Positions 3,470 through 10,625 of a stretch of DNA of 42,288 nt are shown one piece after another. The stretch covers positions 1 to 42,288 of the forward strand of contig MFPL01000009.1 in assembly GCA_001784155.1 (NCBI GenBank), read 5' to 3'. The position numbers and the translations under genes are program-made. The notes under the pieces were generated by a model, which ran no database searches, was not told where the DNA came from, and worked only from the letters and a program-made list of their open reading frames with translations. How positions within the stretch are numbered: the stretch's first letter is position 1; every line of letters begins with the position of its first letter. Source of the DNA: Candidatus Levybacteria bacterium RIFCSPLOWO2_12_FULL_41_12. GTDB taxonomy: Bacteria; Patescibacteriota; Microgenomatia; Levybacterales; UBA12049.

Positions 3470-3498
3470 TTGACACATACCCCCCCAGGGTATACTAT
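3470..3498 (+). promoter_or_regulatory. Promoter and CsoR-type operator of the copper operon
   Basis: The -35 box TTGACA (3470-3475) and -10 box TACTAT (3493-3498) are 17 bases apart. The spacer holds the inverted repeat ATACCC-N5-GGGTAT (3477-3493), the shape of DUF156/CsoR-family operators with their C/G-rich centre. A repressor bound there would block RNA polymerase directly. Only six bases separate the -10 box from the ATG at 3505, so the operon mRNA is probably leaderless at its 5' end. Autoregulation by the first gene is the natural inference. Confidence 0.8.
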
Positions 3499-3504
3499 CG
3501 AATC

Positions 3505-3777
3505 ATGAAGTCACATTACGAAGACGTTAAGGAGAAATCTCAAAAAAGATTAAACATCATTAAGGGACAGTTAGAAGGTCTACAAAAGATGATTGAGAAC
3601 GATGAGTACTGCATGGATCTCCTCAATCAAAGCCTGGCAATACAAAACTCTTTAAAGAGTTTGGATTCGGTCCTTTTCGAAAGACATGTAAGGACGCACG
3701 TAACGCATCAGTTTAAAAACGAAGAGGAAAAAGCCGTCGGAGAATTAGTTGATTTATTCAAAAGAGTAAATAAATAA
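3505..3777 (+). CDS. CsoR/RcnR family metal-sensing repressor
   Basis: The 90-residue all-helical protein belongs to the DUF156 (CsoR/RcnR/FrmR) family of tetrameric DNA-binding repressors that release DNA on metal or ligand binding. The family core R-x-x-x-I-K-G-Q-L-E-G and the ligand positions are clear: C36, H61 and H65. Copper-type CsoR has Cys at position 65. The His seen here, together with H4, reproduces the H-C-H-H set known for the nickel/cobalt sensor RcnR. The surrounding genes all point to copper, so the true inducer is uncertain. It is first in the ten-gene operon, directly behind an operator-like palindrome. Confidence 0.9.
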   Translation: MKSHYEDVKEKSQKRLNIIKGQLEGLQKMIENDEYCMDLLNQSLAIQNSLKSLDSVLFERHVRTHVTHQFKNEEEKAVGELVDLFKRVNK

Positions 3778-3785
3778 AAACGAAT

Positions 3786-4283
3786 ATGTTTGATAAAAAA
3801 GTGTTCTTTTTAATGATAGCGTCTACTGTCTTGATATTCGCTGGTGCAGTATTTGTCCTTGGTTCTAGTTCTAAATCGACGCCTACTTTAACAGAAAACG
3901 CAGTAGCCTACACCTTAGATCCCACGAGCTTTGATTGGGGAAATATTGACTTTGATGGTGAAATAGCTACCAAAGAATTTAGGATTAAAAATAACGGAAG
4001 CGATATTTTAAAATTCTACAATGTAAGAACATCCTGTCACTGTACGAAAGCACAAATGGTAATCGGAGAAGAAGGGAGTCCATATTTCGGAATGAGTGGA
4101 GTTTCCTCGTGGACTGGAGAAGTTGAGCCAGGAAAAGAAGCTAAAATGATAGTTAAATTTGACCAGAGGTATCATGGTCCTCAGGGAGTAGGGCCAATAA
4201 CGAGATTCGTGTCGGTTGAAACAAACGATAAAGCTACTCCTGAGTTGACATTCACGCTAACCGGAACAGTGGTAAAAAAATGA
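3786..4283 (+). CDS. Membrane-anchored DUF1573 protein
   Basis: This 165-residue protein has an N-terminal membrane anchor (about 6-26) and an extracytoplasmic beta-sandwich of the DUF1573 type. The family start F-D-W-G-x-I-x-F-x-G is at 49-58. The conserved T83-S-C84-H85-C86-T segment follows R-I-K-N-N-G-x-x-x-L. DUF1573 proteins are poorly characterised Ig-like domains. The C-H-C triplet would suit binding of a soft metal or a redox thiol. It lies eight bases after the repressor gene and overlaps the next gene by four bases, so it is firmly part of the copper operon. Metal binding is inference. Confidence 0.8.
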   Translation: MFDKKVFFLMIASTVLIFAGAVFVLGSSSKSTPTLTENAVAYTLDPTSFDWGNIDFDGEIATKEFRIKNNGSDILKFYNVRTSCHCTKAQMVIGEEGSPYFGMSGVSSWTGEVEPGKEAKMIVKFDQRYHGPQGVGPITRFVSVETNDKATPELTFTLTGTVVKK

Positions 4284-5230
4284 AAAAAAGACTGGCAAGG
4301 GTTAAGTATAGAAAGGTACTCTTGAAAACTGTTCCCTTGTGGTTTGCAATCCTGCTTACTATAGAATCCTCCGTTATGGTCGGGCTTACCGAGTACTATT
4401 TTATGAAAAAAAATTTTAATAAATCAGTCCTTGAATTATCAAAGACTACCGGTTCCTCTGAAGAACTGGTCCAATTATTAAAACAGGAAGTAATTCCCCA
4501 GAAAGGTTATGTTTTAGCTGTTAAATGGAACGATGTTGGTAAGTTGCTCTTATCAACAGGCGCAATTGATAAAAAAGCTTTCGAAGAATTATTCATAGAC
4601 GAGCCTGTGGGAGCAAAGCATATGTGGCATTTAGAAAATAATTCAAAGGATCAGATGATGATAAGCGAGGGAGGATCTCGTTTTATGGTAAATACGTTAT
4701 GGGCATTGGGTCTAGTTAACAAAAGTAAAATATTAGATGAAGGCTCTATGCAAAAATACGGAGAAGGTGATGTAATGAGCTTTGCCTCTACTGGAGGTTG
4801 GAATTTAGGAACAAGGCCAACTGAAGAGCTTTATTCTTCATCGAAAATTATAGAACTATCGGAAAAACAAGAAGAGCTGGTAAGAAAAATTGCAGTAAGC
4901 GTCTACCGTCCATGTTGCGGAAATCACACGGAATTTCCCGATTGTAATCATGGAATGGCTGCTCTCGGTTACATTCAATTGGCCGTAAAGCAAGGAGTTT
5001 CGGAAAAGAGAATTTATCAAGATCTTCTAGCTCTTAATTCATTTTGGTTCCCACAAAACTACGTAGAGCTTGCAGCTTACTTTCAAAAGCAAAACATTGA
5101 CTGGAAAAATGTTGATCCTAAACTGGCGTTATCCAGTGAGTATTCATCAGCAGACGGAATGCAAAAAGTAAGAGAGTCTGTTCAGAGCATTCCCGGAATT
5201 GGACCGCAGGGCGGAGGTTGCTCGGCATAA
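4280..5230 (+). CDS. Membrane-anchored orphan with a CC-H-C-H cluster
   Basis: I do not recognise this 316-residue protein. A basic N-terminus precedes one membrane helix (about 18-42), so the rest probably faces outside. The middle is mixed alpha/beta. Residues 209-226 hold a compact cluster, Y-R-P-C212-C213-G-N-H216-T-E-F-P-D-C222-N-H224-G-M, and the tail ends G-G-G-C314-S-A. The Cys/His spacing looks like a metal site or redox centre. It overlaps DUF1573 by ATGA and its TAA overlaps the start of the CcdA-like gene, so the three are translationally linked. A role in copper or thiol handling outside the membrane is inferred from position only. Confidence 0.6.
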   Translation: MKKRLARVKYRKVLLKTVPLWFAILLTIESSVMVGLTEYYFMKKNFNKSVLELSKTTGSSEELVQLLKQEVIPQKGYVLAVKWNDVGKLLLSTGAIDKKAFEELFIDEPVGAKHMWHLENNSKDQMMISEGGSRFMVNTLWALGLVNKSKILDEGSMQKYGEGDVMSFASTGGWNLGTRPTEELYSSSKIIELSEKQEELVRKIAVSVYRPCCGNHTEFPDCNHGMAALGYIQLAVKQGVSEKRIYQDLLALNSFWFPQNYVELAAYFQKQNIDWKNVDPKLALSSEYSSADGMQKVRESVQSIPGIGPQGGGCSA

Positions 5231-6066
5231 TGGAAGGCATTCTTTTTCAAACCTCATTAATTGCAGCTTTCGTTGCGGGTATAGTTGCTTTGTTTGCTCC
5301 CTGCTGCATTTCCTTTTTACTTCCCGCCTATCTTGGAAATGTTTTTAAAGAAAAAGAGAAAGTACTTTTTATGACGTTAATTTTTGGAGCGGGAATCTTT
5401 GTGGTTATGATGCCCGCAGTTTTAGGCGTTGCAGTTTTATCAAAAGCATTATTTGTTTACCACGATCCTATCTACTACATAGGCGGGGTCGTAATGCTTG
5501 CTGCAGCGGGTATAACCTTCTTGGGCCTTAAATTTCCAATGCCTAATCTTCCCGGACGTGAGACAACAAAGACCGATCCCCTTTCGATTTTTACGTTAGG
5601 TATTTTTTCTGGGATTACCAGTGCCTGTTGCGCGCCGGTACTAATTGGCATCCTGACCTTGACCTTTCTTTCAACGAGTTTTTTTGGAGCATTGGCAATA
5701 GGAGGAATGTATGTTTTGGGAATGGTGGTTCCCCTTTTAATAATCGCAGTTTTTCTTTCAGGAAAAGTAAGTAGGTTTACAGTTCTTAGAAAACCTGTAA
5801 TGAATTTTACTTTCTTGGGAAAAGAAAGGTTTGTTACCGTAAGTACTCTTTTGGCCAGTATTATCTTTTTTGTAACGGGTATTATGATTTTATATCTTAA
5901 ATCGATTGGGAGACTTGGTATGGAAGATACAAGAGGATTTGCAGAAATCATAACAAACACAAGCTACTCCGTCGATAGGCTAATAGGAGATAATCCCGTC
6001 TTAAATGTAGCCTTTGTTTTCCTTTTAGCTATTTTCTTCTATACTATTTATAGAAAATTAAAATAA
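5230..6066 (+). CDS. CcdA/DsbD-beta type thiol electron carrier
   Basis: The ATG at 5230 overlaps the previous stop (TAATG) and is preferred over a TTG 12 bases upstream; it gives 278 residues. The protein has about six membrane helices typical of the cytochrome c biogenesis transmembrane family. Two redox positions are visible: A-P-C25-C26-I-S-F-L-L-P in helix 1 and S-A-C133-C134-A-P in helix 4. CcdA moves electrons from cytoplasmic thioredoxin to outside thiols. Both sites carry vicinal Cys pairs rather than single Cys residues. Next to two Cys-bearing anchored proteins, it is the likely reductant supply for this operon. Confidence 0.8.
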   Translation: MEGILFQTSLIAAFVAGIVALFAPCCISFLLPAYLGNVFKEKEKVLFMTLIFGAGIFVVMMPAVLGVAVLSKALFVYHDPIYYIGGVVMLAAAGITFLGLKFPMPNLPGRETTKTDPLSIFTLGIFSGITSACCAPVLIGILTLTFLSTSFFGALAIGGMYVLGMVVPLLIIAVFLSGKVSRFTVLRKPVMNFTFLGKERFVTVSTLLASIIFFVTGIMILYLKSIGRLGMEDTRGFAEIITNTSYSVDRLIGDNPVLNVAFVFLLAIFFYTIYRKLK

Positions 6067-6079
6067 AGGGGGTGAAAAA

Positions 6080-6481
6080 ATGAAAAATGAATATTTATAT
6101 GGAATAATTGGTCTTCTTGCAGGATTGGTGATAGCTGTTTTTTTCGCCAATAATGCTGTGAATACGGGAAACACCAGGATGATGGGGATGATGGGGATGA
6201 GACAACAAAGCCTTAGCTGTCCGATGGCATCAGTAGAGAAAGACAAGTCGATGAGTATGATGGAAATGATGGAGGGATTAGAAGGAAAAGCTGGAGATGA
6301 TTTTGATAAAACTTTCATCGAAGAAATGATAGAGCATCATCAGGGCGCCATCGATATGGCAAAAGAGGCTCAAGTTTACGGAAAGCATGACGAGATAAAA
6401 AATCTTGCTGACGAGATTATTTCCGCCCAGACAAGAGAGATAGAAATGATGAGAAGGTGGCAAAAAGATTGGGATTATTAA
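6080..6481 (+). CDS. DUF305 copper-associated protein, Met-rich
   Basis: The 133-residue protein has a membrane anchor (about 7-24), then a methionine-rich stretch (M34-M40, C47-P-M49, M58-M64). A DUF305 four-helix domain follows, with the hallmark F-I-E-E-M-I-E-H86-H87-Q-G-A-I-D-M-A. DUF305 proteins such as cyanobacterial CopM bind copper outside the cytoplasm. Methionine and histidine clusters fit Cu(I) binding. A strong purine-rich ribosome site (AAAGGGGGTG) lies just before the ATG, 13 bases after the CcdA gene. Its length is near that of one DUF305 domain. Confidence 0.88.
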   Translation: MKNEYLYGIIGLLAGLVIAVFFANNAVNTGNTRMMGMMGMRQQSLSCPMASVEKDKSMSMMEMMEGLEGKAGDDFDKTFIEEMIEHHQGAIDMAKEAQVYGKHDEIKNLADEIISAQTREIEMMRRWQKDWDY

Positions 6482-6503: not shown

Positions 6504-6773
6504 ATGCTAAACGCAAAGGCATTTTCTAGCGCGGCAACGCTAATAACGGCTGTATTTTATATTGTATGCGCAACAATATCTTTTATAGCGCCTGATTTCG
6601 TATCTGGTATTGCCAGCTCTTGGATTCATTCTCTGAACCTAGAAGCAATAAAAATGAGAGGACAGCTGTCGGTTGGCACACTTGCTTACGGCTTGATAAC
6701 GATTTCAGTACTCACCTGGATTACTTCATTTGCATTCGTTGAATTGTATAATAGATTGGCAAAAGGTAATTAG
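6504..6773 (+). CDS. DUF5676 family small membrane protein
   Basis: This 89-residue protein has two hydrophobic helices (about 9-31 and 57-79) joined by a loop with a conserved-looking S-L-N segment. It resembles the DUF5676 family, small two-helix membrane proteins often found beside copper ATPases and DUF305 genes. A clear ribosome site, AAAGGGGGTGG, precedes the ATG. No Cys, and only one His, is present, so it is more likely a structural partner than a metal binder. The family name comes from overall pattern, not from a diagnostic motif. Confidence 0.7.
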   Translation: MLNAKAFSSAATLITAVFYIVCATISFIAPDFVSGIASSWIHSLNLEAIKMRGQLSVGTLAYGLITISVLTWITSFAFVELYNRLAKGN

Positions 6774-6785
6774 AAGGCGTGTAAT

Positions 6786-7154
6786 TTGGTTTTCTATATG
6801 GATAAGGTGTTGGTGTTTTTTTTTAGCTTAATAGGGATAGTTTTTACATACTGGTTTTTTCTTATGAGAAAGGAAGACTCTACTGTTGTGACAGATAATA
6901 ATGTGGACATTTTGGTTAGAGGAGGCTATAAGCCTGAGGTTATCACTTTAGTTCAAAACCAAACTACGACTTTAAATTTCTTAAGGAGGGATAAAAATCC
7001 ATGCCTTGAGGAAGTAATTTTGTCCGAGTTTAAAATCAGAAAGTTCCTTCCTATGGATAAAAAGGTTTCCATCCAAGTAACTCCAAAAAAGAAAGGAGTA
7101 TTCCCCTTTTCCTGCGGCATGAGCATGTTTCACGGAAAACTCATAGTTAAATGA
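6786..7154 (+). CDS. Membrane-anchored cupredoxin-like protein
   Basis: The 122-residue protein has one N-terminal helix (about 7-26) and a beta-sandwich domain of the small cupredoxin type. Candidate copper ligands are C73 (N-P-C-L-E-E) and the loop F-S-C110-G-M112-S-M114-F-H116-G. A TTG start at 6786 is spaced nine bases from an AGAAGG ribosome site and is preferred. An ATG at 6798 would remove four residues. The stop overlaps the CopA start (ATGA). The ligand loop is nearly repeated in the fused cupredoxin at 9382-10413, suggesting copper is passed between these proteins and the ATPase. Confidence 0.8.
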
Positions 7155-9379
7155 AGGAGATTAAGAAAGCATTTCCAATAAGGGGGATGCATTGTGCATC
7201 GTGTGTTAGGGTAACTGAACGGGCTTTGAAAAAAGTTCCGGGAGTTAGGGAGGCTGTGGTTAATTTGGCAACAGAGAAAGCTACTGTCACCTATGATCCC
7301 TTGTTATGTGAGCCCGAAAATTTAGCTGATGCTATCTCAAAAACTGGGTATGTAATGGAAACTCAAGTGATAAACGAAGATATTGAACAGGAAGAAAAGA
7401 GAAAAGAACTGAATATCTTAAAAGGAAGAGTAGTATTTAGTTTAACGGTAGGAGCATTAATTTTTTGGGCAAGTTTTCCGGGAATTATGGAAACAGCTCC
7501 TTCAATTCTCAGGAATTTTTACGTTCAGCTTCTTTTAGCTACTCCCGTACAGTTTTGGGCCGCACTACCATTTTATAAGGCCACAATCCCCGCTCTAAAA
7601 AATAGACTCGCCAATATGGATACTTTGGTTGCCCTAGGAACAACAGTTGCCTATGTTTATTCGGTATTTGTAACCTTTTTTCCAGACGTTGTAAGAAAGA
7701 CCGGCATGGAGCCTGTTCCCTATTTTGATGTAGGAGTTGTAGTAATAGCTCTAATACTCCTGGGTAGATATATAGAGGCTAGGGCGAAAGCGGGCACATC
7801 TCAGGCTATAAAAAAACTGATAGGACTTGCGGCTAAAACTGCCAGGGTAGTTAGGAATGGAAAAGAAACAGATGTTCCCATAGAGGAAGTTCGTATAGGA
7901 GATACTCTGCGAGTGAGGCCCGGTGAGAAAATACCGGTAGATGGGAAGATTATTTCCGGCGAATCATCCGTAGATGAGTCAATGGTAACAGGAGAAAGCA
8001 TCCCGGTTGACAAAGCCGTTGGAGACACAGTTATAGGAGCTACTATTAATAAGTCGGGAACATTTACCTATAAAGCAATGAAGGTAGGATCAGAAACTAT
8101 GCTCGCTCAAATTATAAAACTTGTGGAGGAAGCTCAGGGGAGCAAAGCCCCTATTCAAAGGTTGGCAGATTTAATCTCCTCTTATTTTGTTCCAATCGTT
8201 ATCATGCTTGCTTTTGCCACTTTTGCTGTTTGGTACATATTTGGCCCACAGCCTGCAACCCTATTTGCAATTTTAAATACCGTGGCTGTTTTAATTATTG
8301 CTTGTCCCTGTGCAATGGGACTAGCGACGCCTACGGCAATTATGGTAGGAACAGGAATTGGAGCAGAACATGGTATCCTCATTAAAGATGCAGAGAGCCT
8401 GGAGATTGCCCATAAAGTTGATACCGTAATCTTTGATAAAACCGGAACTCTTACAAAAGGAAAACCAGAAGTAACAAATGTGATAAGCTTGGAATCTAAG
8501 ACCTATCCCCGACAAATCGTTTTACAGCTTGCTGCTTCAGTTGAAAAAGTTTCAGAGCATTCTCTTGCGGAGGCAGTTGTGAAAAAAGGTGAAGCTGAAA
8601 AAATAAGGCTTGAAGAAGTTGTAAAATTTCAAGCAATTGCAGGGCACGGAGTCGAAGGAATAATTGGTAAAAAAAGAGTAATTTTTGGGAATAGACGATT
8701 AATTGAAAAAGAGAAAATTTCCTATATTGAAGCTTTAGAGCAAATAGAGCAACTGGAAAGCGAAGGGAAAACAGTTATGCTGCTTGGTATAGACGGAAAG
8801 TTAGCGGGGTTAATAGCTGTTGCAGATACCTTAAAAGATACGGCAAGTGAAGGAGTGAGGGCATTACAAGAACTAGGCATAGAAGTTGTGATGATTACAG
8901 GAGATAACAAGGCTACGGCTAACGCCATCGCGGGACAAGTCGGTATAAAGAGAATATTGGCAGAGGTTTTACCGGATCAAAAAGAGAGTGAAGTTAGAAA
9001 AATTCAAGCTGAAGGAAAAAGAGTTGCAATGGTAGGAGATGGAATTAATGATGCTCCCGCCCTTGCCGCCTCAGATGTTGGAATTGCCATGGGATCAGGT
9101 ACGGATGTGGCAATAGAAGCCGCAGATATAACACTTATAAATAAAGACTTAAGAACTGTTGTGCAGGCAATAAATCTGTCGAAAAAAACAATGAGAACAA
9201 TTAGGCTTAACTTATTCTGGGCATTCGGCTATAATATAGTTCTTATACCTGTTGCTATGGGAATTCTTTATCCATTCTTTGGGCTTCTATTAAGTCCGAT
9301 CCTTGCGTCTGTTGCTATGGCTTCCTCATCTATTTCTGTTGTTGGTAATTCCTTATTGCTAAGAAGGGTAAGGATATAA
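7151..9379 (+). CDS. copA: Copper-exporting P1B-type ATPase (CopA)
   Basis: The 742-residue ATPase exports Cu(I). Domain order is a metal-binding HMA domain with G-M-H-C15-A-S-C18, two helices of the MA/MB type, actuator motif T280-G-E-S, and transmembrane C385-P-C387. The phosphorylation loop D429-K-T-G-T-L-T, the nucleotide domain with S-E-H470, and the hinge G-D630-G-I-N-D follow. The final helices have Y-N and M-A-S-S-S, the pattern of the Cu(I) subgroup. The normally conserved SEHP motif reads SEHS (S471). The start overlaps the cupredoxin gene by ATGA. Together with the chaperone at 10410, this is the cytoplasmic export arm of the operon. Confidence 0.96.
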
Positions 9380-9381
9380 TT

Positions 9382-10413
9382 ATGGATCTTTGGGTAATTT
9401 TCATAACGGGGCTTACTGTTGGAGGGCTAACTTGTCTGGCAGTACAGGGAGGGCTTCTGGCATCTGTTATAGCAGCTAGAGAGGAGGAAGAGGTCGAGAA
9501 AGGCATAAATAATAGCAATCCTGTTTTTCCAACTGTATCTTTTTTAATAACCAAGCTCATTGCATACACGGTCCTGGGATTTATTCTGGGAGCTTTTGGC
9601 GGAGCAATTAGCATAAATCAAACAACGCAAATAGTTATGCAATTCGCAGCAGGCCTTTATATGATTGTGGTAGCGTTTAATCTTTTGGACATTCACCCAA
9701 TTTTTAGATACGCCATTATTCAGCCTCCCCGGTTTCTTACCAGAAGAATCAGATCTCAGTCTAAATCTAAAGATATGTATGCACCTGCCCTACTTGGGGC
9801 GATGACTATATTTATTCCTTGCGGGACAACAATAGCGATGGAAGCGTTAGCAATTAGCAGCGCGAGCCCCTTTTTAGGCGCCGCTATTATGGGAGCATTT
9901 GTATTGGGAACTATCCCGGTTTTTCTTGGGGTAGGTGTTATTACAAGCATCCTTGGAGATAACTTTAGGACAAGATTTTTAAGAATTGCTGCTATCGCGA
10001 TTTTTTATCTTGGTCTCACATCAATTAACGGATCTCTTGTAGCTGCAGGTTCCCCCGTTTCATCCAACTCTATAAAAGAGGGGACCCAAAGCGTTATCAG
10101 TATTTTTACTGTTAACTCCAGTAATCAAAATATGAATATAACTACCACTCAAAATCCTGAAATTTACGTGACTTCAGGTGGATATTCTCCTAATTATATC
10201 AGGGTTAAAAAAGGCCTACCCGTTGCGCTAAAATTAATAGGAAAAGACGCATACAGCTGTGCGTCTGCATTCAGAATTCCGTCTCTTGGTTTGTCTGCTA
10301 CGCTTGAGGGACCAAACGATATAAAAGTGGTTAAATTTACTCCACAAAAGTCAGGGCGGATTTCCTTTTCGTGCTCTATGGGAATGTATACCGGGGTAAT
10401 TGAAGTAATATGA
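9382..10413 (+). CDS. TauE/SafE-like membrane protein fused to a cupredoxin domain
   Basis: The 343-residue protein has an N-terminal half with about six membrane helices, of the UreH-like/TauE-SafE type seen near copper genes. It includes G-L-T-C18-L-A-V-Q-G-G and F-I-P-C147-G-T-T. A linker near residues 225-250 leads to a C-terminal cupredoxin domain with C at Y-S-C-A-S and the loop F-S-C331-S-M333-G-M335-Y-T-G. The His found after the Met pair in the neighbouring cupredoxin is Thr here. It lies two bases after CopA and overlaps the chaperone gene by four bases. The fusion suggests a channel or scaffold that hands copper to or takes it from the membrane; this is inference. Confidence 0.8.
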   Translation: MDLWVIFITGLTVGGLTCLAVQGGLLASVIAAREEEEVEKGINNSNPVFPTVSFLITKLIAYTVLGFILGAFGGAISINQTTQIVMQFAAGLYMIVVAFNLLDIHPIFRYAIIQPPRFLTRRIRSQSKSKDMYAPALLGAMTIFIPCGTTIAMEALAISSASPFLGAAIMGAFVLGTIPVFLGVGVITSILGDNFRTRFLRIAAIAIFYLGLTSINGSLVAAGSPVSSNSIKEGTQSVISIFTVNSSNQNMNITTTQNPEIYVTSGGYSPNYIRVKKGLPVALKLIGKDAYSCASAFRIPSLGLSATLEGPNDIKVVKFTPQKSGRISFSCSMGMYTGVIEVI

Positions 10414-10625
10414 AAAAAATTAAATTAGATATCGAAGGAATGCATTGTTCTAGCTGTGCAATGAATATAGATTTTGATCTGGAAGATATGGATGGCGTAA
10501 AAACAGCAAAAACCAGTTATGCCAAACAGCAGTGTGAAGTTGAGTTTGATGAAGGAAAAATAACTGCGGAAGACGTTTTAAAACAGGTTCAGAAAACAGG
10601 TTATAAAGCGGCTCCGGCACAATGA
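10410..10625 (+). CDS. CopZ-like copper chaperone (HMA domain)
   Basis: The 71-residue protein is a single heavy-metal-associated ferredoxin-like domain with the Cu(I)-binding motif G-M-H-C13-S-S-C16. It keeps the usual family length and the K-T-G-Y motif near the end. Such chaperones carry Cu(I) to the HMA domain of CopA. It overlaps the preceding gene by ATGA and is last in the operon. The convergent typA ends 24 bases later. No convincing terminator hairpin was found in the gap. Confidence 0.93.
   Translation: MKKIKLDIEGMHCSSCAMNIDFDLEDMDGVKTAKTSYAKQQCEVEFDEGKITAEDVLKQVQKTGYKAAPAQ

Follow-up and report, generated by a model that had tools for sequence, protein, structure and literature searches.

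Results

The window, by which we mean the whole 42,288-nucleotide stretch analyzed here, lies on contig MFPL01000009.1 of the 853-kb genome of Candidatus Levybacteria bacterium RIFCSPLOWO2_12_FULL_41_12. Its forward strand carries an operon with genes for, in order, a CsoR protein, a DUF1573 protein, the 316-amino-acid protein that is the subject of this report, a CcdA-like protein, a DUF305/CopM-like protein, a DUF5676 protein, a cupredoxin, a copper P-type ATPase, a DsbD_2-cupredoxin fusion, and an HMA protein. A consensus scan placed a promoter-like site at 3470 to 3498 on the same strand, and between its two hexamers sits a palindromic CsoR-type operator, TACCCCCCCAGGGTA (3478 to 3492), which occurs once in the 42 kb versus 0.10 times expected. 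Similar palindromes lie immediately upstream of CsoR at four related loci (L072, L080, L101, and L110). Elsewhere in the window, a small open reading frame at 36 to 326 resembles a GIY-YIG nuclease when read by eye.

The first gene (3505 to 3777) encodes a CsoR-family metal-sensing repressor (Pfam PF02583, E 5.8e-22) with the ligand fingerprint C36-H61-H65. Thus, it reads C-H-H and lacks the copper-type C-H-C fingerprint, which is found in most relatives' copies when these are aligned by eye. The C-H-H reading casts doubt on the identity of the metal, although the pump of the operon is of the copper type. We note that the CsoR copies of the window, L033, L072, L080, L095, L101, and L110 split into C-H-C and C-H-H types, and that TACCC-N5-GGGTA palindromes lie near the C-H-H copies while TATCCC...GGGATA palindromes lie near the C-H-C copies. 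Because the palindrome types sort with the ligand types, the type of operator and the type of ligand may go together.

The DUF1573 gene (3786 to 4283; PF07610, E 1.7e-12) encodes a putative extracytoplasmic partner with an S-C-H-C motif, and both the Pfam match and the motif confirm the prediction of a C-H-C DUF1573 protein to the left. The gene to the right (5230 to 6066) encodes a CcdA-like membrane protein with invariant cysteines in the pairs APCC and ACCAP. It gave no match in Pfam or NCBIfam, but its profile aligns with CcdA as annotated by PGAP (hhalign E 1.3e-38), in agreement with its original identification as a CcdA homolog. The ATG of the gene between them overlaps the DUF1573 stop codon (ATGA), and its own stop codon overlaps the CcdA-like start by one base. 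These overlaps make it probable that the three genes are translationally coupled.

Farther downstream lie genes for the DUF305/CopM-like protein (6080 to 6481; PF03713, E 2e-19, with an NCBIfam CopM match below its cutoff), the small DUF5676 membrane protein (6504 to 6773; PF18926, E 3e-15), and the cupredoxin-like protein (6786 to 7154; PF13473, E 6.6e-20). They are followed by a CopA-like copper-type P1B ATPase with an HMA domain and a CPC motif (7151 to 9379; TIGR01511, 635.7 bits against a cutoff of 397), a DsbD_2 membrane domain fused to a cupredoxin domain (9382 to 10413; PF13386 and PF13473), and a CopZ-like HMA metal-binding protein (10410 to 10625; PF00403, E 3.5e-15). The last also matched the NCBIfam UxxU metal-binding (seleno)protein family (E 2.1e-18), below its cutoff.

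The protein of interest is encoded at 4280 to 5230 on the forward strand. Its open reading frame and translation showed the predicted coordinates and the residue numbers C212, C213, H216, C222, H224, and C314 to be correct, and C212, C213, C222, and C314 are the only cysteines of the protein. The N terminus is rich in lysine and arginine and is followed by a hydrophobic stretch that probably forms a membrane anchor helix (about residues 17 to 38, positions 4328 to 4393; a helix spans residues 20 to 57 in the structural model), which supports the predicted anchoring. Relatives appear to leave the cytoplasm differently. Those of Burkholderia have a twin-arginine motif at the N terminus and a micrarchaeal relative (L105/L115) has a lipoprotein-like start, both as read from the sequence, while the window protein has no Tat export signal in its sequence. 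Three different export modes among relatives support a location of the domain outside the cytoplasm.

The original prediction called the protein an orphan, and that is wrong: relatives number at least 576 in a scan of GTDB species genomes. Of these, the best 80 were fetched, mostly from Patescibacteria, with three from Chloroflexota and one from a micrarchaeon, and together with the window they make up the set of 81 sequences and loci behind the residue and neighbor counts below. The patterns used to find the 80 loci contain the cysteine motif, and the loci are thus biased toward it; a second set, comprising the window protein and 28 relatives, was found without any motif-based pattern. At E of 0.001 or below, relatives occur in 30 of 287 genomes sampled from the same phylum, including the window's own and one marginal match (E 9e-4). 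In Chloroflexota, they occur in 6 of 201 genomes, one of the 6 being the genome on which the sample was centered. Plasmids of Burkholderia and Paraburkholderia also carry relatives, at 30 to 35% identity, and no viral relatives were found.

The prediction could not place the protein in any family, and that statement stood. Neither the protein nor its profile matched a Pfam or NCBIfam family above the curated cutoff, and PDB sequence searches with the single sequence and the profile returned nothing significant (one single-sequence match, E 0.43). A Pfam search match to GRIM-19 (E 0.05) was taken as chance, as it covers only residues 6 to 52, mostly the N-terminal helix. A search of the literature found no description of this copper-operon module. 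We conclude that the protein is a member of a widespread copper-operon family that is as yet unnamed, and that it has no characterized relative in the libraries searched.

C212, C213, C222, H224, and C314 are invariant in all 81 sequences, an alignment that includes the motif-selected loci, and also in 29 of 29 sequences of the motif-free set. Position 216, in contrast, is serine in 53 of 81 and histidine in just 11 of 81, and we rejected H216 as a ligand. Thus, of the six residues proposed, five pass a check of conservation, and the proposed cluster C-C-x2-H-x5-C-x-H loses its first histidine. As read from the alignments, the conserved motif is C-C-x8-C-x-H (RPCCGNxTxFPDCNHG; C212 to H224, positions 4913 to 4951) plus the tail cysteine C314 (5219 to 5221), the third residue from the C terminus in a glycine-rich tail.

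The cysteines were also followed in 109 domain sequences, which combine two overlapping collections that are not all independent and leave out the N-terminal regions. From about residue 65 onward, these sequences have no cysteine beyond those of the motif and the tail, except for four (L017, L022, L094, and L099) in which the C-terminal Gly-Cys motif is present in two copies. The last cysteine is third from the C terminus in 106 of the 109 and fourth in the other 3. About 20 residues that are not ligands are invariant as well, many of them polar or aromatic, and W141, R210, N215, D221, and N223 among them suggest a substrate pocket.

An AlphaFold model built from the 81 sequences has a pLDDT of 91.8 for the whole protein and, for the soluble domain (residues 64 to 316), a pLDDT of 94.9 and a pTM of 0.93. 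In the model, C212 to H224 fall within a 13-residue segment (block-mean pLDDT about 95 to 99) that ends at the N terminus of a helix. The tail with C314 has a pLDDT of only about 42 to 48 and is predicted to be flexible. In Foldseek searches of the PDB, neither the full model nor the soluble domain gave a match at E below 1 (best E, 1.0 and 1.1), and the full model gave nothing significant among viral models (best E, 0.21); the TM-scores listed were at most about 0.24. The absence of a PDB match makes the predicted fold a candidate new fold, in a comparison with the PDB only and with a program that can miss remote matches.

Neighbors were counted as profile-based families within four genes upstream and five genes downstream on the same strand. 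Across the 81 loci, DUF1573 is in range at 66, CcdA at 55, a P-type ATPase matching the CopA profile at 48, CsoR at 39, DUF5676 at 31, a cupredoxin at 21, and ArsR at 15. S/T-C-x-C is found in 93 of 95 DUF1573 copies, and many of the neighboring ArsR proteins have a cysteine-rich C-terminal extension (PVCGMR...YYFCASGC) that we read as YHS-like. Small membrane proteins of family c6, which have an SCCAH-like motif, are encoded near the gene at L033 (10590 to 11048) and at 17 further loci; the L033 copy had no Pfam match. An isoprenylcysteine carboxylmethyltransferase-like gene recurs at L033 (9934 to 10584), at L111 (4703 to 5362), and on a Burkholderia plasmid.

CcdA is missing from the range at 26 of the 81 loci, and 14 of these 26 encode instead a short membrane protein of family c9 or c27, whose motif is CPLC or a similar CxxC. 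The two never occur in range together (0 of 14 CPLC loci), and the tree requires 7 changes between the CcdA and CPLC states, at least 4 of them on strong branches. The pattern suggests that CPLC membrane proteins often stand in for CcdA beside this gene. Families c9 and c27 (L069, 6906 to 7469; L082, 7470 to 7940; and relatives) are unnamed. The representatives that were scanned had no Pfam match, and a weak resemblance hints that the two families may be related. At the remaining 12 loci, some of which are at contig ends, neither CcdA nor a CPLC protein is in range.

Another explanation of the cysteines is that, in a protein exported from the cytoplasm, they serve only as structural disulfides. 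The protein is probably extracytoplasmic, and four cysteines could pair. However, structural disulfides would not usually involve vicinal cysteines, or a terminal cysteine whose tail is disordered, and neither the constant pairing with a CcdA or CPLC membrane protein nor the invariance of H224 would be expected. We therefore consider this explanation highly improbable.

The domain is also found fused to other proteins. At L019 (37 to 2259), a single open frame encodes it together with a metal P-type ATPase that has a CPH motif, and at L104, L022, and L028 it is fused to a membrane segment with CPVC. A rhodanese domain is fused to it at L084, as identified by Pfam, and at L016 and L023, as identified by eye, with a CxxGR-type loop. 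N-terminal extensions similar in length to those of the rhodanese fusions occur at L069, L077, L085, L102, and L108. On the Burkholderia plasmid, the neighbors include cueR and genes for a P-type ATPase, CcdA, a thioredoxin-family protein, TlpA, and SCO, and the CcdA encoded there aligns with the window CcdA profile. Assignment of the family to a copper export module with DUF1573, CcdA, and CopA is well supported.

Discussion

How the protein might act within the copper export module can be proposed from its invariant residues and its partners. We infer metal binding, electron transfer, a swinging arm, and a physiological role as follows. CopA would export Cu(I), and the vicinal C212-C213 with C222 and H224 would form a soft-metal or redox center just before a helix. 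C314, on the flexible C-terminal tail, would be a swinging arm that carries electrons and/or Cu(I) and shuttles between this center, the C-x-C of DUF1573, and the cysteine pairs of the CcdA-like protein. CcdA would deliver reducing power from the cytoplasm, and the center, thereby kept reduced, would maintain extracellular copper as Cu(I) and repair copper-damaged thiols. We give about even chances to this reading of the protein as a membrane-tethered, extracytoplasmic copper/thiol-redox protein that CcdA keeps reduced.

Several observations argue for the copper/thiol-redox mechanism: the five invariant residues with the fixed tail cysteine, duplicated in four members, and flexible tail; the conserved operon of DUF1573, CcdA, and CopA, regulated by CsoR or ArsR genes in the neighborhood; and the exchanges between CcdA and CPLC proteins, the P-type ATPase and CPVC fusions, and the twin-arginine motifs and plasmid context in Burkholderia. 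DUF1573 also exists as a UxC selenoprotein (PMC2398784), which supports redox activity of the DUF1573 partner and, along with the ScsB-ScsC precedent discussed below, counts in favor. The C-H-H fingerprint of the window CsoR and the 12 loci with neither CcdA nor a CPLC protein count against it, and the mechanism leaves the putative substrate pocket unexplained. In the original prediction, the soft-metal or redox site gains support from the invariant cysteines, and the association with DUF1573 and CcdA from the conserved operon, whereas H216 and the orphan status are not supported.

Copper could be handled for tolerance or to supply a cuproenzyme. COX2 and Cu-oxidase_3 were searched for in the window genome and gave no match, and we therefore favor tolerance over cofactor supply. 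The same result fits storage or detoxification by a plain Cu(I) chaperone or sink, in which the motif cysteines, the histidine, and the tail cysteine would take Cu(I) from CopA, and CcdA would just prevent oxidation of the ligands, without catalysis. Copper regulators and pumps are encoded nearby, and the invariant cysteine and histidine ligands are a soft-metal set. Nevertheless, at 250 residues, about 20 of them invariant without being ligands, the domain is large for a simple sink, and the constant membrane thiol partner and the fixed tail cysteine point to electron transfer. A sink is a possibility that we entertain only tentatively.

The protein might instead be an enzyme whose Cys/His cluster holds a metal or metal-sulfur cofactor and which acts on an extracellular substrate, with sulfur provided by the fused rhodanese domains. 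Twin-arginine export, as predicted for Burkholderia, is typical of proteins folded with a cofactor, and the rhodanese fusions and the many invariant polar and aromatic residues would also be accounted for. The window protein, however, does not appear to be exported by Tat, genes for cofactor insertion are not conserved nearby, and Foldseek gave no fold match to any enzyme in the PDB. Such an enzyme is, in our judgment, decidedly unlikely. Unlikely too is a combination of new fold and new chemistry, an extracytoplasmic enzyme with a vicinal-cysteine copper center that is reduced, or supplied with sulfur by way of the rhodanese fusions, through the C-terminal cysteine arm. If that reading were true, copper reduction or the formation of a copper-sulfur center would have a route of its own outside the cell, spread across Patescibacteria and common to Chloroflexota, Micrarchaeota, and Burkholderia.

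If instead the copper/thiol-redox mechanism is true, a dedicated thiol relay, driven by CcdA, shields the surface of very small bacteria from copper, and this protein takes part in it without a thioredoxin fold. The redox link is made testable by the natural exchange of membrane partners between CcdA and CPLC proteins. Moreover, the family is a tractable target: its copper operons are found in hundreds of genomes, many of them of uncultured Patescibacteria, it has five invariant cysteines and histidines, and it is absent from Pfam and NCBIfam and unmatched by fold in the PDB.

The proposed arm has a parallel in thioredoxin reductase, which has a reactive cysteine near the C terminus on a flexible, glycine-containing tail. 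The likeness to the C314 tail is an analogy only, as there is no homology and no flavin domain. The OS_HP2/DUF1573 (seleno)protein, with C-x-C or U-x-C, is a neighboring partner with a different domain and not a relative. CueP, which binds copper in the periplasm of Salmonella, is likewise an extracytoplasmic copper-operon protein with clustered conserved cysteines and histidines (PMC7558416). Its two-domain alpha/beta structure has been solved (4GQZ), but it was not among the PDB matches of the 316-amino-acid protein in either the profile sequence search or Foldseek. In the ScsB-ScsC system (suppressor of copper sensitivity), CcdA-type reduction serves copper tolerance, and Cu(I) is bound (PMC8900818). 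There, as may be the case at the 55 of 81 loci with a CcdA-like gene, a CcdA/DsbD-type membrane protein reduces an extracytoplasmic thiol protein in a copper-linked setting. ScsC, however, has a thioredoxin fold with CxxC, whereas the protein described here has CC-x8-C-x-H plus a tail cysteine and, with no CxxC, no Pfam match, and nothing in the PDB matched by Foldseek at E below 1, does not resemble the thioredoxin-fold proteins ScsC and DsbA-DsbC. Ultimately, the system is a variant of copper export coupled to CcdA-driven thiols, which is already known, and its 316-amino-acid component represents a family so far unnamed.
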